Below, one piece after another: positions 4,838-11,957 of a DNA stretch of 12,135 nucleotides (its first letter is position 1; each line of letters begins with the position of its first letter). The notes below the pieces were generated by a model. That model was not told the origin of the DNA, did no database searches, and was given only the letters and a program-made list of their open reading frames with translations. The DNA is taken from contig JACPVD010000174.1 of the NCBI GenBank assembly GCA_016191895.1, positions 1 through 12,135 of the forward strand, written 5' to 3'. The stretch comes from Chloroflexota bacterium (GTDB taxonomy: Bacteria; Chloroflexota; Anaerolineae; Anaerolineales; Villigracilaceae). A program made the position numbers and the translations under genes.

Positions 4838-5170
4838 TCAGTCGATTTTTTTCCAGATACTCGAAGGCGGGCGGTTGAGCGGACGGGTAAGCGCGGAGAC
4901 CCGCGACTCATAGTAGGTTTCCTCTTCGTTCGAAAAGCGGGAGACCACAAACAAATTCCGCTTTACAAGAATATCCGCGATGGTTTTGGCTTGCTCGCGA
5001 GGGAACTCCAGTTTTTCCATAAATTCTGTAAAACTAAAACGGCCAAGTCGAATCACATGGTTCAAGGCCGAGCGCAATGGCTCGGAGAACAGAACCACAT
5101 CGGAGGGACGGATATCTTCCGTGCTGGCTTGAAGTTCTTTAATGACTGTTTCGTAAGGAGTCTCGCTCAT
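4838..5170 (-). CDS. Small winged-helix-like protein, partner of ParA-like ATPase copy A
   Basis: This 110-residue cytoplasmic protein lies directly downstream of the copy A ATPase. Residues about 29-95 have the spacing of a winged helix: EPLRSALNHVIRLGRFSF (helix 1 into a turn), TEFMEKLEF, PREQAKTIADILVKRNLFVV (recognition-like helix), then a hairpin-like SRFSNEEETYYESRV. It ends in SSIWKKI. The small protein at 10520-10894 has the same layout (PLDLASLPPALRKIMRLMLREL, then LSREDLQSALTTLTEQYWLI, ending GIWSSL), and both follow a nearly identical ATPase, so the two are probably distant paralogues. There is no Shine-Dalgarno before the ATG. The gene is in frame with the ATPase, separated by one TAG and six sense codons. 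DNA binding is possible but unproven; it could instead be a protein-interaction wing. Confidence 0.75.
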   Translation of the reverse strand: MSETPYETVIKELQASTEDIRPSDVVLFSEPLRSALNHVIRLGRFSFTEFMEKLEFPREQAKTIADILVKRNLFVVSRFSNEEETYYESRVSALTRPLNRPPSSIWKKID

Positions 5171-5188
5171 GGCGCATTCGAAAATTGA

Positions 5189-5944
5189 CTAGGCTTTGAG
5201 TTGTTCTACAAGAGCCCGCAATCCCTTGGTGATGGGGTGATCGGGGAAACGCACCGAGAAAATGCCGGAACTGGCGAGCGTCATCATTTCATCGGAATGT
5301 TGGAGCACGGCGCCAACGGTGGCGTTGTAGGTTTGTTCCACGCGCCTGCGGACGTCTTCAACATCGAATTGGGTCGGTACTTTGTTGACCAGCATGAGCA
5401 GTTTCGGCACGTCGAGTTTCTTGGCAACGTCCACAGTGACCGCTGTGCCCTGATAATCCTGGCTGTCGGGGCGCAGGATGATGATCAACACGTTCGAGAT
5501 GGCGATGGAAAGAAGCGTCTCTTCGTTCAGGCCGGGGTGCGTGTCGATCAGCAGGTAATCCAGTTTCAGTTTTTCGACCACGTCGCGGAAACCGTCGTTG
5601 AGCAGGCCAACGTCATATCCCTCGCGCAGGATGCGGGCAATTTCGCCGGCTTTGATACTGGAGGGAATCAGGAAAATCTGGCCTTTGATCTCCCCGCCGA
5701 GGTGGCCGGTAACGTCGTGCGCGGCCTCTTCAATGGCGCATTTACCCCACAGGAAATCGTTCATCGTCTTTCCCATTTCATTTTCGTCGATGCCAAACAG
5801 GACATGAATTCCCGGGGATTGAATATCCGTATCCACCACGCCGACACGCGCCCCATCCATGGCCAGCAATGCGGAAAGGTTGGCCGTTGTGTTCGATTTT
5901 CCGGTGCCGCCGCGGAACGAGTGAACTGAAATGATTGTGGACAT
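5189..5944 (-). CDS. ParA/MinD-family ATPase (SIMIBI class), copy A
   Basis: The 251-residue product is a deviant-Walker P-loop ATPase. Residues 10-17 read FRGGTGKS, with catalytic-loop Lys16. The usual signature Lys of KGGxGK is Arg11. The switch I-like VGVVDTDIQSPG has Asp38 and Asp40, and the Walker B-like LLIDTHPGLNEE has Asp134. IIILRPDSQD and LVNKVP complete the nucleotide pocket, with VNK as the base-specificity motif. No membrane-targeting amphipathic tail typical of MinD is obvious. GGAG (5952-5955) precedes the ATG by seven bases, and a promoter lies at 5994-6022. The protein is more than half identical to copy B at 9499-10284, with blocks of 15-19 residues unchanged. Family members switch between ATP dimers and ADP monomers to position cargo. 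No parS-like array or ParB gene is visible, so classical partitioning is unlikely. Confidence 0.93.
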   Translation of the reverse strand: MSTIISVHSFRGGTGKSNTTANLSALLAMDGARVGVVDTDIQSPGIHVLFGIDENEMGKTMNDFLWGKCAIEEAAHDVTGHLGGEIKGQIFLIPSSIKAGEIARILREGYDVGLLNDGFRDVVEKLKLDYLLIDTHPGLNEETLLSIAISNVLIIILRPDSQDYQGTAVTVDVAKKLDVPKLLMLVNKVPTQFDVEDVRRRVEQTYNATVGAVLQHSDEMMTLASSGIFSVRFPDHPITKGLRALVEQLKA

Positions 5945-6354: not shown

Positions 6355-6367
6355 GTTATGTTATATT
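6339..6367 (+). promoter_or_regulatory. Possible promoter of the sigma/anti-sigma operon
   Basis: TTGCGG (6339-6344) is followed after exactly 17 bases by TATATT (6362-6367). The same -35 hexamer and spacing occur before the PrsW-like gene (7610-7638). Transcription from near 6374 would give a leader of about 187 nt containing two strong hairpins. The -35 lies inside a palindrome and only nine bases from the target duplication, so the match may be coincidental. Confidence 0.35.
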
Positions 6368-6492: not shown

Positions 6493-6524
6493 AGCGGAAA
6501 TTTGCAAATCTGCAAATTTCCGCT
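6493..6524 (+). repeat. Perfect 14-bp stem hairpin upstream of the sigma gene
   Basis: The arms agcggaaatttgca and tgcaaatttccgct (6493-6506 / 6511-6524) match perfectly around a 4-nt loop. The stem ends 36 bases before the sigma-factor ATG. A ccccttttt run starts about seven bases after it, so it could act as an attenuator or weak terminator on the + strand, or as a symmetric protein-binding site. It could also be a dispersed repeat. Confidence 0.6.
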
Positions 6525-6560
6525 CAAAGCCCCTTTTTCAAGTTATCGACTACTAACTGT

Positions 6561-7115
6561 ATGGAAAACGCCTCAAAGCAAGCCTTCCAAAACCCAAGCG
6601 ATGCGACCCTGATCCAGCAGTTTAAAGATGGGGATGGCGAAGCATTTACCGCGCTGTATCATCGCCATCTTCCGTCTGTTTACAAGCGGGTTCGTTATGT
6701 CGTTCCCGAAGGCGATGTGGAGGACGTGACCCAGGAAGTATTTATTGCGGCTTCCAGATCGCTCGCCTCCTTTCGCGGCGACTCGCAATTCGGCACATGG
6801 TTGCGAACGTTGACAAATTACTCGGTAGCCAAATTTTACAGGATGCGCGGCCGTAAACGCGAACCGCTCCTTGCGCCGCTGTTGGAGGCATCCGGCAAAA
6901 CAGAAGGTGTTTCGCAAAAGACCCTGGAGGATCGCATGATCATTCAAAGCGCCCTCCAAAAACTACCCGATAACTACAGGGAAATCCTTCTCCTGCGCCT
7001 TGCGGAAGATATGCAATTTAATGAGATCGCCGGCCTGTTGGATCAAAACATCGAAGCGACCAAGTCCCTTTTTCGCAGGGCCGTGGCCGCGCTTCGCAAC
7101 CTGATGGAAGAATAA
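6561..7115 (+). CDS. ECF-type RNA polymerase sigma factor
   Basis: The 184-residue product has the compact two-domain build of sigma70 group IV. Sigma2 spans about residues 15-99, with DVEDVTQEVFIAASRSLASFRGDSQFGTWL covering core binding and the -10 recognition helix. An RMRGRKREP linker follows. Sigma4 spans about 125-180: ALQKLPDNYREILLLRLAEDMQFNEIAGLLDQNIEATKSLFRRAVAALRN, a clear helix-turn-helix for the -35. No Shine-Dalgarno precedes the ATG, so initiation may be weak. One base after its stop begins a small two-TM protein, the usual place for a cognate anti-sigma factor, and a PrsW-like protease follows. This order fits membrane-signalled release of the sigma factor by proteolysis. Whether it controls its own operon cannot be read from the sequence. 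Confidence 0.93.
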   Translation: MENASKQAFQNPSDATLIQQFKDGDGEAFTALYHRHLPSVYKRVRYVVPEGDVEDVTQEVFIAASRSLASFRGDSQFGTWLRTLTNYSVAKFYRMRGRKREPLLAPLLEASGKTEGVSQKTLEDRMIIQSALQKLPDNYREILLLRLAEDMQFNEIAGLLDQNIEATKSLFRRAVAALRNLMEE

Positions 7116-7116
7116 T

Positions 7117-7584
7117 ATGGATCAATCGAGCGATTATTCCAACTTGATACAGGATAACCGCCTGGCCGATTTCACCGATCGCGTCATGCAGGGCGAAACT
7201 CAACAGCTCGAATCGGGGCTGGACGATGAGTTGATCGGCCTCGAGAAAACGATTCTCCGTTTGAATCAGGCCCTGCCCCCCGTTTCACTGGACGACGTGG
7301 CAATAAAAAAAATGCAGGTGCGCCTGAATGCGCGAATGCGCAGGGAAACAAAGGAGGTCCGCCCGCCTTTTTGGAAGAGGTGGTTCGATCCCCGCTCCCG
7401 TTTGCAACTTGCCGCGGCGGGATTGGTAATCGCGCTTGTTGCGCTTGTGCCCGCATTGATCATCTCCGAACCGCCCCCGCCTCTTCCTGCAACGGCTCTT
7501 GCCCCAACTCGCGGCATTGCCATAGCGGTATTCTTCCTATTGGGCATCCTGCTCGTTTTTTTGTGGAAAAGGCGCAAAAAATAA
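7117..7584 (+). CDS. Putative membrane anti-sigma factor (two TM, no zinc motif)
   Basis: The ATG is one base after the sigma stop. Its likely ribosome site (GGAAG, 7106-7110) lies inside the sigma gene, so the two are translationally coupled, as is typical for a sigma/anti-sigma pair. The 155-residue product has a helical, charged N-terminal part (residues 1-90: RLADFTDRVMQGE, LIGLEKTILRLNQAL, KKMQVRLNARMRRE), TM1 at about 97-116, a 17-residue Pro-rich loop (SEPPPPLPATALAPTRG) and TM2 at about 134-150, ending in basic KRRKK. Both termini would face the cytoplasm. There are no cysteines, so the HxxxCxxC zinc motif is absent. Unlike RsiW it has no large outer domain, so signal sensing would rely on the short loop or on a partner. 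The anti-sigma role is inferred from position, coupling and topology. Confidence 0.72.
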   Translation: MDQSSDYSNLIQDNRLADFTDRVMQGETQQLESGLDDELIGLEKTILRLNQALPPVSLDDVAIKKMQVRLNARMRRETKEVRPPFWKRWFDPRSRLQLAAAGLVIALVALVPALIISEPPPPLPATALAPTRGIAIAVFFLLGILLVFLWKRRKK

Positions 7585-7609
7585 CGCCATAGTTTTGTCA
7601 GTTTCAGGC

Positions 7610-7638
7610 TTGCGGGGACATAACAGGTACGGTATTAT
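7610..7638 (+). promoter_or_regulatory. Possible promoter giving a leaderless transcript of the PrsW-like gene
   Basis: TTGCGG (7610-7615), 17 bases, then TATTAT (7633-7638). Transcription would begin at about 7645-7646, essentially at the A of the ATG at 7646. No Shine-Dalgarno precedes that ATG, which agrees with leaderless translation. The -35 matches consensus only in TTG. Confidence 0.42.
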
Positions 7639-7645
7639 TCCCAAC

Positions 7646-8752
7646 ATGGTCATCTATCTGGCTTTGGGCGTGGCGTTTTTATTCCCGCTCGGTTTTTTGT
7701 ATTTTATTCGCAGGGGGGATTTGTACGGCACGGGCAAATTCCATATCAACATTGTCACGCTTGTTTGGGGAATGGTCGCCTACCTGCTGGCGGCGCAGAT
7801 CAACCCCGCCGTAATAAACGCCGGCTGGGCCACTCGCGATCAGGTCATCCGGGTTGTCGCGCCCATTCTCGAGGAATTCCTCAAAGCCATCATCCTGATC
7901 TACCTTGTGCAACGCGCCGATTTCAACTACGTGGTCGATGGCGCGATCTACGGCTTTGGCGCGGGCATCGGATTTGCGATCATCGAAAACTATGAATACG
8001 TCAGCGGGCATCCTGAGATCGCCATGTCGATTGCGATTGCGCGCGTGCTCTCCACCAACCTGATACATGCCACCGGAAGCGGCGTGATCGGCACCGTGCT
8101 CGCCTTCCGCCGCGGCGAACTTAGCTGGATGGGGTGGCTTGCGGTCCTGCTGGGGTATGTCTTTTCCATGGCCTTTCATATCGGGTTCAATACCATGGTC
8201 AGCATGGGACGGGCGCCCCTTCTTTTGGCGATTGTCTTTGGGTTTACGGGACTGGGCCTCATTTGGTACGCAATCAAGCGCGGCTTGAACGTGCAGAAGA
8301 ACTGGGTCGGCGAAAAACTCGGCATGGGCGACCGCGTGACGAAAAGCGAAGCGACCGTCGTCCGCAATATCGAGGATTTGAGCGAAGTGCTGACGCCGAT
8401 CGAAAAACAATTCGGCGCGGCGAAGGTCCCCATTGTGGAAGGCATTATCCGCAAGCAGGCCGAGATCGGCATCAAACGAAAATTGCTCGAGAAGACTCCC
8501 AGCGAAAGCAAACGCAAGGAGATCGAAGAGATCATCGCGTCGCTTGGAATGGAAATGGATGTCTTGCGCAGGGAGGCGGGTTCCTATTGCATGATGTTCG
8601 TCCGCACGGTGTATCTCGAGCAGGATATCAAGATTTGGGACGCGATCAACTCCCGTATCGCCGAACAGAATACAGGTCAAAAGGGAGGCGGGTTGTTCGA
8701 TCGGGCCACCACGCGCATGAAGCATCGTCCGTCGGAGGAGGAGAAATCATAA
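7646..8752 (+). CDS. PrsW-family intramembrane protease with long cytoplasmic C-terminal extension
   Basis: I chose the ATG at 7646 because the hydrophobic first helix begins there; a TTG 51 bases upstream would add a polar stretch. The 368-residue product has about seven TM helices within residues 1-210. The family's conserved motifs are all present: EExxK (E76 E77 F78 L79 K80), FxxxEN (F110 to E114 N115), a histidine in LIHATGSG (H141) and HxxxN in AFHIGFN (H178, N182). PrsW proteins are glutamic-type/CPBP-related membrane proteases; B. subtilis PrsW makes the first cut in anti-sigma RsiW. A sigma/anti-sigma pair lies immediately upstream here, so the two-TM protein is its likely substrate. 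Residues about 211-368 form an unusual charged, helical tail of unknown role (KRKLLEKTPSESKRKEIEEIIASLGMEMDVL). The stop overlaps the next start. Confidence 0.88.
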   Translation: MVIYLALGVAFLFPLGFLYFIRRGDLYGTGKFHINIVTLVWGMVAYLLAAQINPAVINAGWATRDQVIRVVAPILEEFLKAIILIYLVQRADFNYVVDGAIYGFGAGIGFAIIENYEYVSGHPEIAMSIAIARVLSTNLIHATGSGVIGTVLAFRRGELSWMGWLAVLLGYVFSMAFHIGFNTMVSMGRAPLLLAIVFGFTGLGLIWYAIKRGLNVQKNWVGEKLGMGDRVTKSEATVVRNIEDLSEVLTPIEKQFGAAKVPIVEGIIRKQAEIGIKRKLLEKTPSESKRKEIEEIIASLGMEMDVLRREAGSYCMMFVRTVYLEQDIKIWDAINSRIAEQNTGQKGGGLFDRATTRMKHRPSEEEKS

Positions 8753-9483
8753 TGCACGACATCACAAGTCAATTGAAAAACACGATGATTTTCCGCGGCC
8801 TCTCGGATGAGGCGCTCTCGGCGCTTGCGCAAAAGGCATCCACGCGCAAACTGGCAAAGGATGCCGTGTTGATGCGCAAGGGCGATCCCGGCGATTCGCT
8901 GTTTCTGATCCACAACGGATGGGTGAAGATCGTGACGGTGGATTCAAAAGGCGACGAACTGGTGATCAACAAATGCGGGCCCGGCGAAACGATCGGCGAG
9001 ATGGCCCTGCTTGACGGCTCCCCACGTTCGGCCACGGTGATCGCGCTGGAAGATTCGGAAGTGCTGGAACTGAAACAGGATGTATTTCAAAATGTGCTCG
9101 ATCAGCGCCCGGACGTTTCGCTGGCAATCATCCGCGGGTACTCCGAACGACTGCGCTTTGCCACAACCTACATCGAACGCGCCATCGACTGGTCGCAAAA
9201 GACCGCCGAAGGCGATTACTCCTTTATCAATCAGACACAGCCGCTTTTGAACCAGGCCGGCTCGAACGACGACAAGGCCGCGCAAATGCTCTCCGCGTTC
9301 TTCGCCATGGTTCGAAAAGTTAAGGAGCGCGAAGAAGGCTTGAAACAGCAGTTGGAAAAGCTGACGTTTGAAATCGATCAGGCGCGCAGGAAGAAGGAAT
9401 TCGAAGAGATTACCGGCACCGAGTTTTATACGCAACTCAAGGAACAGGCGAAAACCCTGCGTGAAAAACGAAAACAGTCATAA
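8752..9483 (+). CDS. Cyclic-nucleotide-binding protein with coiled-coil tail, no HTH
   Basis: The ATG overlaps the previous stop (TAATG), with an excellent AGGAGGAG ribosome site inside the upstream gene. A longer frame upstream is only an overlap with that gene. The 243-residue product has a Crp-type cNMP-binding domain at about residues 8-135: MIFRGLSDEAL, GDPGDSLFLIHNGWVKI, and the phosphate-binding cassette GETIGEMALLDGSPRSATV with key Glu83 and Arg92, so cAMP or cGMP binding is credible. It lacks the C-terminal helix-turn-helix of Crp/Fnr regulators. Instead residues about 170-243 form a long charged helix or coiled coil (KVKEREEGLKQQLEKLTFEIDQARRKKEF). It probably works as a nucleotide-sensing adaptor acting through protein contacts, perhaps with the PrsW-like tail or the adjacent ATPase. 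That partnership is inferred from gene order. Confidence 0.9.
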   Translation: MHDITSQLKNTMIFRGLSDEALSALAQKASTRKLAKDAVLMRKGDPGDSLFLIHNGWVKIVTVDSKGDELVINKCGPGETIGEMALLDGSPRSATVIALEDSEVLELKQDVFQNVLDQRPDVSLAIIRGYSERLRFATTYIERAIDWSQKTAEGDYSFINQTQPLLNQAGSNDDKAAQMLSAFFAMVRKVKEREEGLKQQLEKLTFEIDQARRKKEFEEITGTEFYTQLKEQAKTLREKRKQS

Positions 9484-9498
9484 CCTTCTGGAGGCATC

Positions 9499-10284
9499 AT
9501 GAACAAAGGCAAGATCGTTTCAATTCATTCGTTCCGCGGCGGCACCGGGAAATCGAATACCACAGCCAACCTTGCGGCGCAGGCCGCGATGGCCGGCAAA
9601 CGTGTCGGCGTGGTGGATACGGATATTCAATCCCCGGGCATTCACGTGTTGTTCGGCCTCGACGAAAACAAGATGGGCAAGACCATGAACGATTTCCTGC
9701 ACGACAAGGCCACCATCCGCGAGATCGGACTCCCGATCGGCGATAACACCGATACAACCGAAGGGCGCGCCAAACTGAAGGGCAAGAACCTGTGGCTGTT
9801 TCCCTCCAGTATTCGCGGGCGCGAGATCAGCCAGATATTAAAGGAAGGCATCGACTTCAACAAGTTGAACGAAGGCCTGCAAACCACCATCACTGAATTC
9901 GATCTCGATTACCTGTTCATCGATACGCATCCCGGCTTGAACGAAGAGACGCTTCTTTCCATCGCCACCTCCGATATTCTGATCATCATCCTGCGCCCCG
10001 ACAGCCAGGACCTGCAAGGCACTTCGGTGACGGTGGATATTGCGCGAAGCCTCGACGTGCCCAATCTTTTATTGATGGTGAACAAGGCGCTCCCCAAGTA
10101 TGATCACGCGGAATTAAAAAAGGACATCGAAGAGCAGTTTAGCGCGCCGGTGGCCGGGATTTTGCCGCTTTCCTTCGATATGGCCGAAAACGCCAGCAGC
10201 GACCTTTTCTCCCTGCGCTACCCCGACCATGAATGGTCGAAGGGATTGCGCAGCGTGGCCCAGGCCGTTCTGGCATTGGGATAG
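9499..10284 (+). CDS. ParA/MinD-family ATPase (SIMIBI class), copy B
   Basis: A GGAGG ribosome site (9490-9494) precedes the ATG. The 261-residue protein has the deviant Walker A FRGGTGKS (residues 12-19, Lys18; Arg13 where most relatives have the signature Lys), VGVVDTDIQSPGIHVLFG (Asp40, Asp42), Walker B-like YLFIDTHPGLNEE (Asp142), IIILRPDSQD and VNKALP. It is closely similar to copy A at 5189-5944; the main difference is a longer insert at about residues 76-94 (GLPIGDNTDTTEGRAKLKG). It follows the cNMP-binding gene by 15 bases and precedes a small zinc protein by nine, so it is part of one operon. No ParB, parS array, flagellar gene or min gene is visible. A role as an ATP-dependent switch or positioning factor within this signalling operon is inferred. 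Confidence 0.93.
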   Translation: MNKGKIVSIHSFRGGTGKSNTTANLAAQAAMAGKRVGVVDTDIQSPGIHVLFGLDENKMGKTMNDFLHDKATIREIGLPIGDNTDTTEGRAKLKGKNLWLFPSSIRGREISQILKEGIDFNKLNEGLQTTITEFDLDYLFIDTHPGLNEETLLSIATSDILIIILRPDSQDLQGTSVTVDIARSLDVPNLLLMVNKALPKYDHAELKKDIEEQFSAPVAGILPLSFDMAENASSDLFSLRYPDHEWSKGLRSVAQAVLALG

Positions 10285-10293
10285 GAGCGGACG

Positions 10294-10506
10294 ATGAAAT
10301 GCTGGCATTGTGAAGACCCCGCCCGCGCGTCGTGCGCGTTCTGCGGGCGTTTTGTATGCAAGGATCACGCCGCGACCATGTCCACGTTTCTGACGATGTT
10401 CGTGGGCGCAAACAACACTCCCAAGGGACTGGCTGTGGCGAACGTCATCTGGTGCGGGGAATGCGAGCCTCAGCCCGAACCCATCAGCATGCCTGAACTT
10501 TATTGA
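10294..10506 (+). CDS. Small zinc-binding protein, B-box-like
   Basis: This 70-residue protein has its own GGAG site just upstream. The N-terminal half carries CxxC (C3, C6), a second CxxC (C14, C17), then C22 and H25: KCWHCEDPA, SCAFCGRFVCKDHA. That spacing resembles B-box or related treble-clef zinc fingers. A third CxxC (C54, C57 in WCGEC) lies near the C-terminus, making about eight possible ligands, enough for two zinc ions. The middle (TMSTFLTMFVGANNTPKGLAVANV) is mildly hydrophobic and may be a helix. It lies between the copy B ATPase and the winged-helix-like gene with short gaps, so it is almost certainly co-expressed. The copy A locus has no equivalent. Its function is unknown; a protein-interaction adaptor is the likeliest guess. 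Confidence 0.82.
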   Translation: MKCWHCEDPARASCAFCGRFVCKDHAATMSTFLTMFVGANNTPKGLAVANVIWCGECEPQPEPISMPELY

Positions 10507-10519
10507 GAGAGAGGTCGCC

Positions 10520-10894
10520 ATGCCCGGAGTCTTCGATCGGTTGAACAAGGAAATACAGGACAAACAGCAGGAAGGCGGAATTACCCCGCTCGACCTTGCC
10601 AGCCTGCCCCCCGCCCTGCGCAAGATCATGCGCCTGATGTTGCGCGAATTGCAGATGACCTACCCGAGGCTGTGCGAAGCGATGGACGAAATGCCCGAAG
10701 CCGATCGCCTCTCGCGCGAAGATTTGCAATCTGCCCTGACCACATTGACCGAGCAATACTGGTTGATTCGAATCGGCGAGAAAGAGAAGGCCATTTACAA
10801 GGTAAACCTGCGCCGTAAGGAGGGCAGTAAACTGGCGGCGGGCATCTGGTCATCGTTGAACGAGAGGTTGAAGAAACACCCGAAGGATACATAA
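10520..10894 (+). CDS. Small winged-helix-like protein, partner of ParA-like ATPase copy B
   Basis: A GAGAGAGG ribosome site precedes the ATG by a few bases. The 124-residue cytoplasmic protein has a polar N-terminus (VFDRLNKEIQDKQQEGG), then helices consistent with a winged helix: LPPALRKIMRLMLRELQ, TYPRLCEAMDEM, LSREDLQSALTTLTEQYWLIRI. A wing-like strand pair follows (GEKEKAIYKVNLRRK) and a C-terminal GIWSSLNERLKK. The order and spacing match the 110-residue protein downstream of copy A, including the terminal IW motif, although overall identity is low. It is the last gene of the operon, and its stop codon lies inside a strong terminator. It may be a DNA-binding or adaptor partner of the ATPase; it is too short for ParB and lacks ParB motifs. 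Confidence 0.82.
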   Translation: MPGVFDRLNKEIQDKQQEGGITPLDLASLPPALRKIMRLMLRELQMTYPRLCEAMDEMPEADRLSREDLQSALTTLTEQYWLIRIGEKEKAIYKVNLRRKEGSKLAAGIWSSLNERLKKHPKDT

Positions 10895-10932
10895 AATCAA
10901 CAGGCGGACATCAGTCCGCCTGTTGATTTTAT
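10891..10932. terminator. Perfect bidirectional terminator containing both convergent stop codons
   Basis: A perfect 19-bp stem (10891-10909 / 10914-10932) with loop atca. The GC core is caggcggac / gtccgcctg, flanked by aaaatcaa / ttgatttt, so each strand ends in a U-rich arm. The TAA of the + strand operon (10892-10894) and the TAA of the - strand thiamine gene (10929-10931) both lie within the stem. Confidence 0.95.
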
Positions 10933-11957
10933 TTCATCGCGTCCACCCACGCCTCGATCCACGCGTCGCGGTTGGACGCGGTCTCTTTATACGAAAGCAG
11001 GGCGGGCTTTGCCGCGACCTCCGCAAAGTTCACAAAGACATCGGGAAGTTTTGCGTTTTGATTAACAGGGAAGATGAACATGCTCAACGGCATGTCCTCC
11101 TGGAACTGCGGGCTTAACATGAAGTCTATGAATTTTTCGGCAAGTTTTTGATTCGGCGTATTCTTAAGAATGCCGGCAAATTCAATTTGACGGAAGCACA
11201 TGCCCGGGGTCACGATGGAAGCGGTTGGGGATTCGGTCAGTGGGTCGGAAGCGAAGAACACTTCCGCGGCGGGGCTGGAGGCGTACGAAACGACCATCGC
11301 CTGCGGCCCTCTACCCGACGATGCGGAGAAATTGGTGTAATATGCCGTCTCCCAACCATCTACAACAGCCACATCATTTTCTTTCAATTTTTTCCAGTAG
11401 GCGAGATACTCATCGCCAAAGTGCGCGCGTGTGGCAAGCAGGAAGGCAAGCCCCGGCGACGAAGTGGCTGGATTCTCCACGACCAGTAATCCTTTGTATT
11501 CAGGTTTTATCAGGTCTTCAAATGTCTGGGGCACAGACAAATTATTTTCGGCGAAATATTTTTTATCGTAGTTAATGCACACATCGCCATAGTCAACGGG
11601 AATTGCATGATGAGTTTCGTCCAGGATGTATTCGGCGGGAATGTCCTTCAACATGGGTGATTGATATGCCTCGAAAATGCCGGCGTCCAACGCGCGCGAG
11701 AGGAAGGTGTTATCCACGCCGAAAATGATATCGGCAATCGGCGCGTCTTTGGTAAGAATGGCCTGATTGAGCATCGCTCCCGCGTCGCCGCCTTGAATGA
11801 ATACAACGTCCGCGTTGTTCTGTGTTTCAAACGCTGTGATGACATCCTCGCTGATGGCGAACGAGTCGTGCGTCAGAATGGTGATGGTTTGCGGTCCCGC
11901 CGGGGCACAGGAGAAGAGGATGAGGGTGAAAAGTAGAAAGTGGAAAGTATGTTTCAT
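10929..11957 (-). CDS. thiB: Thiamine ABC transporter substrate-binding lipoprotein (ThiB/TbpA family)
   Basis: The 342-residue product is a type II periplasmic-binding protein for thiamine or its phosphates. The N-terminus is a lipoprotein signal with lipobox LFSC and lipidated Cys17. Family hallmarks follow: TITILTHDSFAISEDVITAFE (residues 24-44), ADIIFGVDNTFLSRALDAGIFEAY, IPVDYGDVCINYD, VVDGWETAYYTNFSASSGRGPQAMVVSYASSPA (W202 and Y225 in the region lining the thiamine pocket in ThiB) and TPGMCFRQIEFAGILKNT. The length is normal. A GGAG site (11966-11969) precedes the ATG by eight bases. The gene lies 51 bases downstream of a thiamine pyrophosphokinase on the same strand, so uptake and activation of thiamine are probably one operon. 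Permease and ATPase genes are not in the window. No TPP riboswitch is visible directly upstream; any such element would precede the operon. Confidence 0.9.
   Translation of the reverse strand: MKHTFHFLLFTLILFSCAPAGPQTITILTHDSFAISEDVITAFETQNNADVVFIQGGDAGAMLNQAILTKDAPIADIIFGVDNTFLSRALDAGIFEAYQSPMLKDIPAEYILDETHHAIPVDYGDVCINYDKKYFAENNLSVPQTFEDLIKPEYKGLLVVENPATSSPGLAFLLATRAHFGDEYLAYWKKLKENDVAVVDGWETAYYTNFSASSGRGPQAMVVSYASSPAAEVFFASDPLTESPTASIVTPGMCFRQIEFAGILKNTPNQKLAEKFIDFMLSPQFQEDMPLSMFIFPVNQNAKLPDVFVNFAEVAAKPALLSYKETASNRDAWIEAWVDAMK

Follow-up and report, generated by a model that had tools for sequence, protein, structure and literature searches.

The window analysed here is the whole 12,135-base contig C168 of genome G000 (67% complete). 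It carries a cluster of regulatory genes, one of which encodes a C-terminal tail that is almost strictly co-distributed with the ParA family marked by the phosphate-binding loop (P-loop) FRGGTGKS, to which ATPases of the same locus belong. As the initial annotation had described, seven plus-strand open reading frames (ORFs) lie at 6561–10894: an extracytoplasmic function (ECF) sigma factor (6561–7115), a candidate anti-sigma factor (7117–7584), a PrsW-type intramembrane protease (7646–8752), the cyclic-nucleotide-binding receptor cNMP (8752–9483), the ParA/MinD-like ATPase ParA1 (9499–10284), the zinc-finger-like protein Znf (10294–10506) and the winged-helix protein wH1 (10520–10894). Their coordinates confirm the tight spacing, with gaps of 1 nt (sigma/anti-sigma), 61 nt (anti-sigma/PrsW), 15 nt (cNMP/ParA1), 9 nt (ParA1/Znf) and 13 nt (Znf/wH1), and a 1-nt overlap (TAATG) between PrsW and cNMP. 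The terminator proposed after the last gene was also found, as a strong 19-bp hairpin at 10891–10932 on the plus strand (RNA fold −31 kcal/mol, z −10.66) that overlaps the wH1 stop. The gene list was nevertheless incomplete, since a divergent paralogous pair upstream (4838–5944, minus strand) had been overlooked, consisting of parA2 (5189–5944) and its partner gene wH2 (4838–5170).

The sigma gene product belongs to the ECF sigma factors, as judged by PF04542 (Sigma70_r2, region 2) and PF08281 (r4_2, region 4), the only Pfam families above cut-off, and by TIGR02937, likewise above cut-off. The following gene was named candidate anti-sigma factor from position and topology only; it matched no Pfam family, and its one NCBIfam match lay far below cut-off. 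Hydropathy points to a cytoplasmic N-terminus and two transmembrane (TM) helices (residues 98–116 and 133–151) joined by a 16-residue loop. The same topology, with loops of 11–26 residues, was seen in 28 of 28 homologues, a count that took in those with a profile score above 80 and left out more distant ones. So short a loop between the helices argues for a trigger from the cytoplasmic side.

The window PrsW matched PF13367 (4e-21) and carries, within its TM helices, the catalytic Glu pair with Lys, the second Glu and the two His motifs, which are invariant in 46 aligned sequences. These are the four motifs given for Bacillus subtilis PrsW (E75E76xxK79, F110xxxE114, H138 and H175xxxD/N179) in the available text of PMC12943098, and the gene's place beside an ECF sigma factor and a membrane anti-sigma candidate likewise resembles the PrsW/RsiW system of sigma-W. 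The locus differs from that system in two respects: the anti-sigma candidate has two TM helices with almost no external loop, and PrsW has a folded helical domain at its cytoplasmic C-terminus and is linked with a cyclic-nucleotide receptor and a ParA-like ATPase.

For cNMP, PF00027 (4.9e-27) was the sole Pfam match above its cut-off, which bears out the earlier description of a receptor without a DNA-binding domain. The protein shares with CRP/FNR receptors a cyclic-nucleotide-binding domain with an intact phosphate-binding motif; we rejected its assignment as a CRP/FNR regulator because it has no helix-turn-helix domain in Pfam, its place being taken by a helical linker (coiled coil by eye) and the tail, which forms the last 44 residues (9349–9480; profile match, alignment A1). 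The phosphate-binding cassette (GExxL...PRxA) reads GEMALLDGSPRSAT in the window, so that the protein carries an intact predicted cyclic-nucleotide pocket motif. A strict pattern for this motif was found in 88 of 120 close homologues, and a relaxed one in 44 of the 57 homologues in the named loci described below.

ParA1 and ParA2 were assigned by Pfam, ParA1 to the ParA/AAA_31 family, and are 57% identical. Arg replaces the signature lysine of the canonical deviant Walker A motif (KGGxxGK[ST]) in 155 of 159 unique family members, ParA1 included, for which reason that motif was rejected, although the P-loop retains GK[ST]. Side observations in this family are a close relative with a degenerate P-loop (NSFSSSNGNS; L032:9004-10008), perhaps an inactive paralogue, a member with an N-terminally fused DnaJ domain in Pfam (L033:7330-8607), and a 1404-aa ORF joining ParA, Ser/Thr kinase, FHA and GON-like domains next to a tail receptor (L154:7605-11819).

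Znf (70 aa) was recognised from its Cys/His pattern (CxxC, CxxC, CxxH, CxxC), which is kept across 23 aligned sequences; its only Pfam match was of Cys-His type and below cut-off. It is the most conserved gene of the cluster, with the lowest mean amino-acid distance of eight genes over 19 loci (0.104). Pfam gave nothing significant for wH1 (124 aa) and no match for wH2, and a BlaI match of wH1 by sequence was weak (E 0.074). An AlphaFold2 model supports the winged-helix label that the initial annotation gave to wH1; its confidence is middling (mean predicted local distance difference test 65.7, about 80 over residues 31–95; predicted template modelling score 0.51), and it has the order H31–42, E45–47, H48–57, H66–78, E82–85, E92–95, that is, the winged-helix arrangement H1-S1-H2-H3-S2-S3. 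Among the 50 Foldseek matches listed, mostly MarR, MecI/BlaI, ArsR and AspA, the best had an E-value of 1.2e-3 and none fell below 0.001; most are proteins that we take to be winged-helix. wH2 is homologous to wH1 by profile comparison (hhalign probability 98.4%, E 7.8e-15), whereas plain BLASTP found no alignment between the two.

Conservation and fusion of the cluster genes

We compared the locus with 61 related genomes, with 40 loci fetched from relatives, and with stretches around PrsW relatives in named genomes (best 80 of 125). The named loci overlap partly with the related genomes, and the locus sets overlap too (L061 and L088, for example, are one contig). In the 61 genomes the components were mostly gained or lost together: ParA was present in 34, sigma in 28 and cNMP in 27, and of the 35 genomes with any PrsW match, 27 had one of the cluster type (E ≤ 1e-30). 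The nine-gene order wH2-parA2 / sigma-anti-sigma-PrsW-cNMP-ParA1-Znf-wH1, with parA2 divergent from sigma, recurs at 17 of the 40 fetched loci, in one of which (L066) PrsW and cNMP matched in pieces; the other 23 are cut by a contig end, divergent, or carry another ParA gene. Among the 80 named loci, ParA lies near PrsW in 72 (70 after removal of the weak matches L119 and L120), a winged helix was found in 69, Znf in 65, a tail in reach in 63, sigma in 44 (within 6 kb, same strand) and anti-sigma in 40. Chance adjacency of unrelated regulatory genes, in favour of which speaks only the separability of single genes, is already contradicted by the order kept at 17 of 40 loci and by ParA lying near PrsW, and we give it practically no weight. 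The titles of all the named loci are those of Chloroflexota groups, except for L151, which is titled Bordetella parapertussis, holds a Chloroflexota-type PrsW-Znf pair and is probably a misassigned metagenome bin.

Among well-flanked loci (ParA-positive, with at least 6 kb upstream and at least 3.5 kb downstream; 41, or 39 without L119 and L120), a tail was found in 38 of 39 and sigma, on the same strand and no more than 6 kb away, in 31 of 39. Since sigma is linked at only this fraction of loci, we regard the PrsW-ParA-Znf-wH core as the more firmly joined unit and sigma as a member that is often present but can be separated from it. The full combination claimed initially thus recurs as a unit, but the core also occurs without sigma. 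Independent occurrence of the sigma pair and the PrsW-to-winged-helix block, which had been named as what would refute it, is seen in part.

Several of the genes are fused in relatives. PrsW, cNMP and tail form a single ORF in five loci (L087, L088, L093, L094 and L103; L088 checked with Pfam), PrsW and ParA form one of 643 aa in L148, and cNMP, tail and ParA one of 505 aa in L152; in L040 a wH-like part (by eye) is fused to a cNMP domain (Pfam) beside ParA. Because these natural fusions link PrsW, cNMP and ParA, the second messenger and the ATPase probably act on PrsW. The earlier proposal that both tune proteolysis is strengthened by them, and is weakened by the seven of 34 ParA-bearing relatives that have no cluster-type PrsW match (some assemblies being incomplete). 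All seven have tail matches, indicating that the tail-ParA pairing is independent of PrsW and that ParA is not simply an accessory of PrsW. These genomes, and the eight of 39 core loci with sigma missing nearby, would also be expected if the operon held two independent modules with nothing but co-transcription to link them, one a stress circuit of sigma, anti-sigma and PrsW and the other a receptor circuit around ParA. We consider such a division unlikely, as the PrsW-cNMP-tail and PrsW-ParA fusions speak against it, and as PrsW, ParA, Znf and wH stay together in divergent lineages despite a permuted order (tail-ParA-Znf-wH-PrsW in L145, L147 and L149; tail-ParA-wH-Znf-PrsW in L139 and L140).

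Further genes recur around the cluster. A Gly-rich lipoprotein with PD40 propeller repeats is encoded between anti-sigma and PrsW in 17 of the 38 named loci with both genes, and a convergent gene for a two-domain class III cyclase (PF00211) lies less than 300 bp from wH1 in 28 of the 49 named loci whose downstream flank is 2 kb or longer; this is followed in several relatives by a GAF protein that has the same tail. In the window, the cyclase position of many relatives is occupied by a convergent gene (10929–11957) for a thiamine-type ABC substrate-binding lipoprotein (TIGR01254).

The C-terminal tail and its pairing with ParA

The tail of about 44 residues is common to otherwise unrelated receptors with Cache, CHASE3/4HB, GAF or HAMP domains. 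From 129 unique tails we obtained the consensus QvekLrIEIDeaRRkkqVeEITeTeFFqdLKekAkeLRqkra; the profile, in which the window tail is one of ten rows, matched in the own genome G000 with an E-value of 8.6e-20. In 125 of the 129 the tail lies within 40 aa of the C-terminus, and its last 15 residues are net positive in 111. Ten tail proteins scanned with Pfam contained dCache, Tll0287-like, 4HB/CHASE3 and GAF domains and an ECF-riboflavin-transporter S-like region, mostly with HAMP (some of these matches fall below the curated cut-off), and no kinase, methyl-accepting chemotaxis protein (MCP), GGDEF or other recognised output domain. A length-limited database search with one tail returned 141 proteins, with GAF domains in nearly all of the 120 matches listed. 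Membrane receptors with HAMP linkers include histidine kinases, MCPs and diguanylate cyclases; the tail proteins share their Cache, 4HB/CHASE3 and GAF sensors and the HAMP linkers, but in the ten scanned proteins the tail replaces the kinase, MCP or GGDEF output. We also noted, by eye, a roadblock/LC7-like protein (L166:7070-7441) near a distant tail receptor of genome G026.

Tail and ParA were present together in 34 of the 61 relatives and both absent from 24; three had the tail only (G017, G020 and G031) and none ParA only. In a class sample of 396 genomes the corresponding numbers were 76 with both, 313 with neither, four with the tail only and three with ParA only, and in a phylum sample of 400 genomes they were 48, 349, two and one. 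These two samples share the first 20 positives and some negatives, and at most six candidates were scored per genome. Outside the class, 28 genomes of the phylum sample, across 10 families, had both. Concordant switches of presence and absence were seen inside genera g25, g26 and g4, which argues against mere shared ancestry. The two genes need not be neighbours: G026, a single contig, has two ParA genes 5 kb apart at 1.24–1.25 Mb and four tails. Two of the tails are next to the ParA genes, whereas the others, at 2.2 and 3.9 Mb, are separated from them by about 1 and 2.7 Mb.

The pairing extends to plasmids. A search of the 72,556 plasmids of PLSDB with one tail query (E ≤ 1) found the tail in six records, all of them among the eight that have ParA at ≥50% identity. 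By profile, a Rhizobium plasmid with ParA but no tail in the one-query search does encode a tail protein, immediately upstream of ParA, whereas no tail was found in the Nostoc UHCC 0870 record (ParA at ≥50% identity) or in five Streptomyces records (ParA match about 33%). On a Deinococcus plasmid (L172:905-8255), a PP2C phosphatase gene is followed by genes for ParA, wH2, a tail receptor of HAMP type and another ParA-like protein (FMRGTGKS); a further tail receptor is encoded downstream.

It might be argued that the tail binds wH, Znf or a factor encoded elsewhere, with ParA merely co-inherited, so that its pairing with ParA is indirect. The wH2 homologue directly after ParA on the Deinococcus plasmid would suit this, as would the wH found in 69, and Znf in 64, of the 72 ParA-positive named loci. 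On the other hand, ParA and tail occur with no wH or Znf matched by the profiles on the plasmid stretches examined from Nostoc (L173, L180) and Rhizobium (L176), and L152 fuses cNMP, tail and ParA, which makes an indirect pairing improbable in our judgement.

ParA/MinD (A/D) ATPases work with partners in systems such as ParA-ParB, MinD-MinE and McdA-McdB, and ParC/PpfA with chemoreceptors, ParC or PpfA positioning chemoreceptor arrays. The proteins studied here belong to the same P-loop ATPase family, and their candidate partner peptide is short, terminal and basic. They differ in the Arg at the signature position, in a peptide that is C-terminal and common to many unrelated receptors, and in the link to a sigma factor and a protease. 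According to the available text of PMC10241942, known ParA/MinD partner peptides are basic and N-terminal, and many of the ATPases are 'orphans' without known partners. A basic N-terminal peptide of this kind was rejected as a description of the tail, which, though basic, is C-terminal. The tail thus resembles a partner peptide with opposite polarity and is predicted to work like one.

The main rival to switching is spatial positioning, and both may hold. The ATPase would then place receptor/protease clusters, with the tail as cargo adaptor, wH as nucleoid or DNA anchor, and proteolysis controlled elsewhere. One of the matches of the wH1 model is AspA (5k5q), a winged-helix protein that binds the centromere in a plasmid partition system and has a ParA partner there, but AspA did not stand above other winged helices. 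Partition modules of this kind have a centromere site and a ParB adaptor. In the available text of PMC10241942, ParA/MinD ATPases position cargo via basic partner peptides. However, the many and varied receptors without recognised outputs that share the tail fit a signalling hub better than a single cargo, and both the tail and ParA occur fused to PrsW. We therefore regard positioning as a possible explanation, though not a likely one.

Putative sigma-type promoters

Two putative promoters precede the sigma gene. The element TATGTTATATT (6357–6367, plus strand), a likely vegetative −10, was found by eye in intergenic sequences and with a simple pattern, and recurs upstream of sigma within the genus as read by eye. 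At 6527–6552 (plus strand) lies, by eye, a degenerate counterpart of the relatives' ECF-type promoter (about CRACCC-N17-CGACTA). A palindrome, AGCGGAAATTTGCAAATCTGCAAATTTCCGCT, at 6493–6524 separates the two and was not seen by eye in the relatives' intergenic regions inspected.

The strict sigma-type motif, C[AG]ACC[CA]-N16-18-[GC]ACNA, was found upstream of 20 of 44 sigma genes, compared with 0.009 expected per 220-nt window. By eye it often stands only a few bases ahead of the sigma ATG, which suggests a leaderless, autoregulated transcript. There were 86 further matches in the 81 sequences scanned. They include positions upstream of cyclase-adjacent genes for propeller lipoproteins, assigned by Pfam in L098 and by eye in L109 and L127, the corresponding place in L114, and sites ahead of other secreted-looking protein genes in L102, L120, L122, L123 and L135.

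A predicted receptor-to-ATPase-to-protease circuit

Gene content, order, domain make-up, fusions and co-distribution are established by these comparisons. We consider it fairly probable that a receptor-to-ATPase-to-protease circuit explains the cluster, a reading guided by the short basic terminal peptides through which ParA/MinD partners act (PMC10241942, available text) and by the role of PrsW in B. subtilis. The tail would serve as a docking and control peptide for the Arg-signature ParA. Several receptors, some of them encoded far away, would converge on one or two such switches, acting with winged-helix (and Znf) partners. In this operon the switched ATPase and the cyclic-nucleotide receptor may be seated on the C-terminal, cytoplasmic domain of PrsW, where they would control its activity or its access to the anti-sigma factor; the fusions favour this step. 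Cleavage of the anti-sigma factor would, from what is known of the family, free the ECF sigma factor, which in relatives may use CRACCC-N17-CGACTA-like promoters to transcribe the sigma gene itself and genes for beta-propeller lipoproteins; the neighbouring class III cyclase would there supply the cyclic nucleotide.

Several observations weigh against this circuit. With regard to the window itself, its sigma promoter copy is degenerate and fails the strict pattern, which was fixed after viewing upstream sequences; its locus has neither the lipoprotein nor the cyclase, and no cyclase match at 1e-60 was found in G000; the C-terminal domain of PrsW gave no clear fold match. In relatives, sigma is lacking within 6 kb at eight of the 39 well-flanked loci (about 9 kb off in L115), cNMP does not always separate PrsW from ParA, the core in L117 has no tail within reach, and L073, whose PrsW is 68% identical, carries none of the partners on its 7.7-kb contig. 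The fusions come from metagenome assemblies, and the join in L152 runs through an apparent intergenic ribosome site, possibly a result of stop loss. As to the tail, discordant genomes occur (tail only in four, two and three, and ParA only in three, one and none, of the class sample, phylum sample and relatives), the tiny Fisher and hypergeometric p-values for co-occurrence ignore phylogeny, and not all tail proteins are plain receptors: among the matches listed, P0356 is labelled a Na/H exchanger and P0358 has a response-regulator domain. The indirect pairing considered above counts on the same side.

The cluster joins two known kinds of system, ECF/PrsW proteolysis and ParA/MinD with a partner. 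The initial annotation knew of no described system with all these parts, and we found no paper linking PrsW, cNMP, ParA and tail among the openly licensed literature matches listed, and none with the ParA P-loop string or the tail strings in openly licensed literature. One part of the combination is already in print: PrsW fused to second-messenger receptors (cNMP and PilZ) and to FHA and Zn-ribbon domains (PMC3482391, PMC12943098; available text). The PrsW-cNMP linkage is the same here, mostly as separate genes and fused in five loci, while ParA, a shared tail and a winged-helix partner go unmentioned in the available text of both papers. The tail/ParA pairing suggests an undescribed route by which bacterial sensors relay signals. 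The wider proposal is evenly balanced in our view: it posits a separate class of signal transduction in which varied receptors carry one short terminal tag and through it reach a dedicated ParA-like ATPase that has the Arg signature and a winged-helix partner. This class would span Chloroflexota and plasmids from Cyanobacteria, from Deinococcus and from a Rhizobium, and in Anaerolineae it would drive PrsW-dependent ECF sigma release under cyclic-nucleotide control. If true, the shared tag would explain both orphan ParA/MinD ATPases and seemingly output-less receptors and would allow signalling partners to be found in genomes by a rule read from sequence. Control of an intramembrane protease would then come from the cytoplasm, through a second messenger and an ATPase, and not from an external ligand of the anti-sigma factor.

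Two minor observations concern PrsW and sigma control away from the cluster. PrsW paralogues without the cluster (L123:3474-6721 and L120:7785-11146) follow genes for large secreted-looking proteins, which are preceded by the same sigma-type promoter motif. Moreover, a ParA relative of about 33% identity on a Streptomyces plasmid (L181:2879-5771) lies after genes for an anti-sigma antagonist, an ATP-binding protein and a SpoIIE phosphatase, an arrangement hinting at another link to sigma control.

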